A stretch of DNA of 43,391 nt from Patescibacteria group bacterium (GTDB taxonomy: Bacteria; Patescibacteriota; Minisyncoccia; Phycocordibacterales; Phycocordibacteraceae): the NCBI GenBank assembly GCA_018969385.1, contig JAGWYL010000006.1, forward strand, positions 1 to 43,391, given 5' to 3'. The first letter of the stretch is position 1, and each line of letters starts with the position of its first letter. Below, in pieces: positions 38,498 to 38,875 of this stretch. The notes beneath the pieces are model-generated. The model saw only the letters and a program-made list of their open reading frames with translations, had not been told where the DNA came from and did not search any database. A program made the position numbers and the translations under genes.

Positions 38498-38525
38498 TTG
38501 ACATCCTATTTCGTAGTGATATAGT
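38498..38525 (+). promoter_or_regulatory. near-consensus sigma70-type promoter
   Basis: TTGACA-16-TATAGT with TGn extended -10. Confidence 0.85.
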
Positions 38526-38531
38526 CGCTAT

Positions 38532-38875
38532 CCGACCGTTTCGTGGCTCTTAGCGGAAGGCGATGGGGTGTCCCAAATATGGCCCCAAACCCAGGGACAC
38601 CCCGCCGACATGATTACGTACCTTAGAATTGGGGCGCGCTTGAGGCCGGTCTCGCACCACGGCGACCGTCTCGCGAAAGCCCTAAGCCGCGCCCGCCTGC
38701 ATGTTCCCGTCCTCGTTAAGAGGATGCGCGGAGCGTTCGCAGGCGGGCGCGGCGCCCCCTGATCCTGCGGTTACGACCCCTCCACCGCGGGATGCCGTCC
38801 GGGAGGACAGGATACGTGATGTTTCGGCCCCAGCTGTCCATCACGCAATCCTGTTCTCTCGGCGGTTTTGTTTTT
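38532..38875 (+). ncRNA. orphan structured RNA candidate, about 345 nt
   Basis: Strong promoter, 10-bp and 15-bp perfect stems, loop-downstream pseudoknot (GCCCCAA:TTGGGGC), long terminal hairpin plus TTTTGTTTTT; no credible ORF. Confidence 0.65.
38795..38875 (+). terminator. terminal hairpin of the ncRNA candidate
   Basis: ccgtccgggaggacaggatacgtgatg / catcacgcaatcctgttctctcggcgg then TTTTGTTTTT. Confidence 0.8.

Follow-up and report, generated by a model that had tools for sequence, protein, structure and literature searches.

The interval at 38498-38875 of the 43,391-nucleotide stretch analysed here (the window) is best read as a gene in its own right for a structured non-coding RNA, complete with promoter and terminator. 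On the evidence of sequence and comparison, we consider it reasonably likely that this is an independent gene, that its product acts in trans, and that it is a probable, fast-evolving member of an RNA family linked to def (peptide deformylase) in Candidatus Kaiserbacteria. The genome is Candidatus Kaiserbacteria-like, with 0.76 Mb in 32 contigs, and is ~93% complete. The genes around the RNA run in the order murA-like (EPSP-synthase fold), an unnamed gene, a conserved ORF, the RNA, def, and a gene that, from inspection of its translation by eye, we take to be fmt-like. The interval 38498-38875 is not covered by any long uninterrupted ORF that has a plausible start. The coordinates of the individual features are collected in Table 1.

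Table 1. Predicted features of the def-upstream RNA gene and its immediate neighbours (window coordinates)
Feature	Position	Strand	Basis or remark
Conserved Kaiserbacteria ORF (...TERGELMRFF...FWWELDPKKH...), 5' of the RNA	38003..38377	+	no Pfam family
REP-like inverted repeat (~38398-38440), then degenerate second copy of the ORF C-terminal end (WEVDPKKH...KY*)	38398..38500	+	
RNA-gene promoter, TTGACA-16 nt-TG-A-TATAGT	38498..38525	+	11/12 matches, extended -10; P<0.005 against shuffles
Predicted structured-RNA transcript, ~340-345 nt	38530..38875	+	fold z ~ -8, no Rfam family
5' hairpin GGGGTGTCCC/GGGACACCCC, 19-nt loop, possible pseudoknot with 38629-38635	38565..38603	+	stem, shuffle test
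Main hairpin, 15-bp perfect closing stem; putative counterpart of the relatives' covarying GTGCCGCYGA/UCRGCGGCAC hairpin	38686..38753	+	
C/U-rich tail motif GCCCCCTGATCC, immediately after the main hairpin	38754..38765	+	9-mer CCCCCTGAT common to three relatives
Third hairpin, CCTGCGG..CCGCGGG around CCCCTCC	38764..38793	+	MFE fold
Intrinsic terminator, long interrupted hairpin, then TTTTGTTTTT	38794..38875	+	sequence and fold
def's own extended -10 (TGG TATAGT), 6 nt 5' of the ATG, past the RNA terminator	38889..38897	+	
def, peptide deformylase	38904..39485	+	PF01327, 4.7e-38

The promoter consists of TTGACA (38498-38503) and TATAGT (38520-38525) separated by a 16-nt spacer, exactly as described in an earlier sequence-only reading of this DNA, with the TG one base 5' of the -10 element. 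That reading called it the best promoter match found, and it is indeed the top sigma-70-like site across the window; the surrounding 1.7 kb contain one such site, compared with 0.2 in shuffled sequence. The predicted transcript starts at approximately 38531-38533 and ends inside the T tract. The long terminal hairpin claimed earlier is present at ~38794-38865 and is followed by TTTTGTTTTT at 38866-38875. The minimum free energy of 38530-38876 is -181.8 kcal/mol (z -8.1; 0/100 shuffles), and z is still -6.3 once the last 45 nt are cut off.

Both perfect stems of the earlier description, one of 10 bp (GGGGTGTCCC at 38565-38574 with GGGACACCCC at 38594-38603) and one of 15 bp (38686-38700 with 38739-38753), are exact, and the inner TCCTC-gttaa-GAGGA lies within the latter. 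In dinucleotide shuffles (n=200) the longest perfect stem has a mean length of 7.8 bp and a maximum of 13, such that 15 bp is never reached. The proposed H-type pseudoknot is suggestive only. The complementarity between GCCCCAA (38582-38588) and TTGGGGC (38629-38635) exists, but a 7-bp Watson-Crick run arises in 2.8% of shuffles, and TTGGGGC has competing pairings in the MFE fold.

The locus matches no Rfam 15 family at threshold; with the cut-off relaxed to E <= 10, the top hit has a chance-level value of 1.9. This agrees with the sequence-only reading, which had recognised no tmRNA, RNase P RNA, SRP RNA or riboswitch signature. The tmRNA of this genome sits at C21:16101-16518, and the def locus has neither tRNA-like ends nor a match to RF00023. 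A divergent RNase P RNA that escapes Rfam in this genome (G000) would have a similar length, and RF00010 and RF00011 find none here while 15 of the 19 genomes searched have one. However, this identity is very unlikely, indeed scarcely credible: the locus has no match to either model even at E 10 and no CR-I/CR-V core, its nearest approach to the CR-I motif having at least 3 mismatches in 10, and in two relatives (G008 and G009) a def-upstream module coexists with a clear RNase P RNA at another locus. Since the genome is ~93% complete, rnpB may simply be unassembled; the RNase P RNA of G000 may otherwise be very divergent.

With its long rod-like hairpin, its GC-richness and its strong promoter, the def RNA also recalls 6S RNA, or a 6S-like decoy for RNA polymerase, and the Rfam 6S model detects no 6S in the window's genome. 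Identity with 6S is nonetheless rejected, and a 6S-like role is highly improbable. Seven 6S RNAs encoded ahead of an MBL-fold RNase gene were used to build a genus-specific model, which finds a single 6S in 78 of 93 genomes, most of the def-module genomes included. It matches none of the def-upstream RNAs, and places the true 6S of this genome at G000:C10:11028-11175 (78 bits). Like the def RNA, the Kaiserbacteria 6S (RF00013 type) is a stand-alone gene with its own promoter and terminator and a long rod-like fold, and it occurs in the same genomes. Unlike the def RNA, it has a conserved sequence core and a central bubble, and is present as a single copy in nearly all genomes. It precedes an MBL-fold RNase or VanZ-like gene instead of def, and the def RNA is without 6S motifs. 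As a separate observation, RF00013 misses or under-scores this near-universal, single-copy Kaiserbacteria 6S, which lies near the MBL-fold RNase gene (G000:C10:11028-11175, locus L189, and loci L186, L261, L268, L277, L278 and L279).

The RNA had been described as an orphan. This is wrong, because relatives carry def-linked modules that cluster on the def tree, have a main hairpin with covariation and share a tail motif. Of 84 def loci in the genus, 26 were scored by inspection as having a module with this layout immediately before def. Each consists of a promoter, a structured RNA of 100-400 nt and a terminator, directly 5' of def whichever gene lies beyond. On the def tree the module label requires 12 changes, whereas shuffled labels need 22.3 (0/500). 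In the weakly supported clade that includes the window the module is present in 18 of 25 rows. It is missing in about two thirds of the genus and is thus dispensable there.

The gap between the conserved ORF and def ranges from 4 nt to 1.1 kb in ~60 same-genus genomes. Many gaps are ~20 nt long and contain def's promoter alone, and several contain MITE/REP-like hairpins or small protein genes. In 13, including that of the window, a promoter near the ORF stop is followed by a structured body of 100-400 nt and a terminator abutting the def promoter, although L062, L069 and L076 have only weak promoter matches. One further genome (L127) has the same layout between ORF and def. In genomes where def instead comes after a gene identified by eye as priA, a module of this kind also occurs, and its RNA promoter (TTGAC(C/T)-17-TATAGT) is embedded in the last codons and stop of priA. 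The gap at L055 (G060) contains two tandem promoter-RNA-terminator modules before def. By eye, loci from other families of the order (L292 in G049 and L303 in G046) show a TTGAC(A/T) promoter and a terminator ahead of def, separated by ~90-130 nt, which suggests that the module may predate the genus.

The module remains beside def though the upstream gene changes, and so a cis role for def is conceivable. The upstream unit could tune def through read-through at its terminator, by occluding the def promoter or by insulating it, with the RNA itself inert in trans; the terminator indeed ends right at def's promoter. We regard this as unlikely, however. A TGnTATAGT box lies 6-8 nt before the ATG in the def genes of the window and its relatives, which would make def leaderless, and a TGnTATANT-like box is found at the equivalent place in 39 of 63 def genes under a strict pattern. 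As the box is present also in relatives without the RNA module, def does not appear to depend on the module. In addition, a body of 100-400 nt with several long hairpins exceeds what an insulator needs. An ordinary def leader or riboswitch was also considered and rejected, since def's own predicted -10 sits after the RNA terminator.

The independent RNA gene reading is supported by a sequence-anchored main hairpin (GTGCCGCYGA/UCRGCGGCAC) that is common to eight relatives. The first ten pairs form in all eight, and in five pairs both partners vary. Its covariation score of 0.324 exceeds the 0.200 obtained with shuffles and the maximum of 0.134 reached by slid controls. Covariation, which the sequence-only reading had named as a check, is therefore found in the main hairpin, in an alignment of these relatives and not of close homologues of the window copy. 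The window's main hairpin is at the place expected for the def-linked family, with 15 bp closing 36 nt.

Directly 3' of the relatives' main hairpin is a C/U-rich tail (CCCCC-TGAT or CCCCC-GCTCTTT). The 9-mer CCCCCTGAT follows the main hairpin directly in the window and in L004, L069 and L205, and a both-strand background of 761 kb contains the window's own copy only. With a weight matrix from 17 other tails, the window left out, the window tail falls in the top 0.7% of positions (P = 0.007). The covariance model of the hairpin, R1, selects the right hairpin on the right strand at the window locus, though with a low score (9.5 bits, E 0.013 in 531 nt), and misses this hairpin in larger searches; across 93 genomes it gives strong E-values at the def loci of its training genomes only. 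Pairwise alignment of the RNA bodies between genomes is no better than a reversed-sequence null, so homology rests on synteny, hairpin and tail. The whole locus, compared at the DNA level with 59 relatives, matches only itself. Given the weakness of the R1 hairpin match, the window copy is a probable and not a certain homologue of the def-linked family. Pairing of the tail motif with a G-rich stretch 5' of it, as a closing helix P1, is suggestive in L004, L205 and L206, but is not significant per sequence and was rejected.

The strong divergence of the RNA bodies would also be expected of a lineage-specific insert, that is, a decayed or non-functional cluster of mobile hairpins in a hot-spot gap with a fortuitous promoter and terminator. 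The same gap holds MITE/REP-like hairpins, a GIY-YIG element or small genes in other relatives, and a REP-like repeat and a duplicated ORF end adjoin the window copy. Yet the genome contains no second copy of 38498-38875, the presence of the module follows the def tree, the main hairpin covaries in relatives, and promoter position and tail motif recur. We therefore judge such an insert distinctly improbable. A search of 380 kb for similar modules elsewhere gave a few promoter-terminator pairs, none clearly of the def-linked type.

Several repeat elements were observed in and around these gaps. The ORF upstream of the RNA is conserved and encodes 96-124 amino acids. A REP-like hairpin at its 3' end with a second copy of its C-terminal codons is found in three genomes (the window at 38398-38500, L070 and L072). 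In the window the stop codon of the degenerate copy overlaps the -35 element of the RNA promoter; without the REP-like insert, the promoter would begin at the ORF stop, as in relatives. At L066, L072, L083 and L100 the def start codon is directly preceded by MITE-like hairpins whose ends read AATCCCGTTAGAGAT...ATCTCTAACGGGATG, and at L066 a GIY-YIG-like ORF lies between the same terminal inverted repeats. The window itself contains two repeated families of long inverted repeats, probably REP-like (21915-22046, 8568-8638, 31473-31535 and 34615-34659), the arms of one beginning GCCCGCACACTCA and those of the other containing GCTTCCGAACCG.

If the interval is an independent RNA gene, sigma-70 RNA polymerase would start near 38532 from the strong extended -10 promoter and produce an RNA of ~340 nt. 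This RNA would comprise the 5' hairpin, the 15-bp main rod hairpin, the C/U-rich single-stranded tail and the third hairpin, and transcription would stop at the strong terminator just before def's leaderless promoter. The stable rods may protect the RNA and expose pyrimidine-rich single strands (CCCCC-UGAU/GCUCUUU and CCCUCC), on which an RNA-binding protein or target RNAs could dock; such a docking site is the most economical guess as to function. Transcription, stability and action in trans are what we infer for the def-upstream RNA.

The RNA strand is C-rich, with CCCTCC occurring 15 times against a single GGAGGG, and accessibility is higher for CCUCC segments than for the remaining C residues. 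In Firmicutes, C-rich-motif sRNAs of the RsaA type pair with Shine-Dalgarno sequences (PMC3961350). These are likewise intergenic and terminator-ended, with unpaired pyrimidine-rich CCUCC/UCCC stretches. However, Shine-Dalgarno sequences are not enriched at first ATGs in the window's genome (10/86 versus 25/229 internal), so pairing to ribosome-binding sites is not supported. An anti-Shine-Dalgarno sRNA was accordingly rejected; CCUCC is enriched and accessible, yet the organism shows no Shine-Dalgarno usage. TATANT boxes are enriched near gene starts in relatives.

Structured RNA candidates from bacterial comparative genomics (PMC2864571, PMC8632094) rest on the same class of evidence, namely synteny, covariation and promoter and terminator context. 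The def RNA differs from them in that the locus and its relatives match no Rfam 15 family, in its fast evolution, and in its confinement, as far as seen, to a Patescibacteria lineage. It is a new family, while its kind, the stand-alone bacterial structured RNA gene, is already known. A full-text search among open-licence papers found no report of such an RNA in Patescibacteria.

To our knowledge, almost nothing is known about regulatory RNAs of Patescibacteria/CPR. The candidate family would be an RNA gene that about one third of a genus with strongly reduced genomes has kept, in which promoters are strong and structure covaries while almost no sequence is conserved. This makes it a clear target for metatranscriptomics, and it suggests that synteny can reveal RNAs that Rfam-style sequence models miss. 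A more far-reaching proposal, to which we attach only slight probability, is that of a Patescibacteria-specific RNA with a core role tied to translation, always beside def/fmt, in which architecture is kept while sequence turns over almost completely. Such an RNA might be a protein-binding global regulator in reduced genomes without Shine-Dalgarno signals.

A second RNA element, of known family, lies near the end of the window. A group I intron (RF00028, 62 bits, 42842-43076) interrupts a tRNA gene at 42822-43123 (+). The split tRNA is not reported by ARAGORN; the intron is flanked by a tRNA-like 5' part, TCCGGTGTAGCTCAATGGTAGAGC, and a 3' part, GGTTCGAGTCCTACCGCCGGAGCA.
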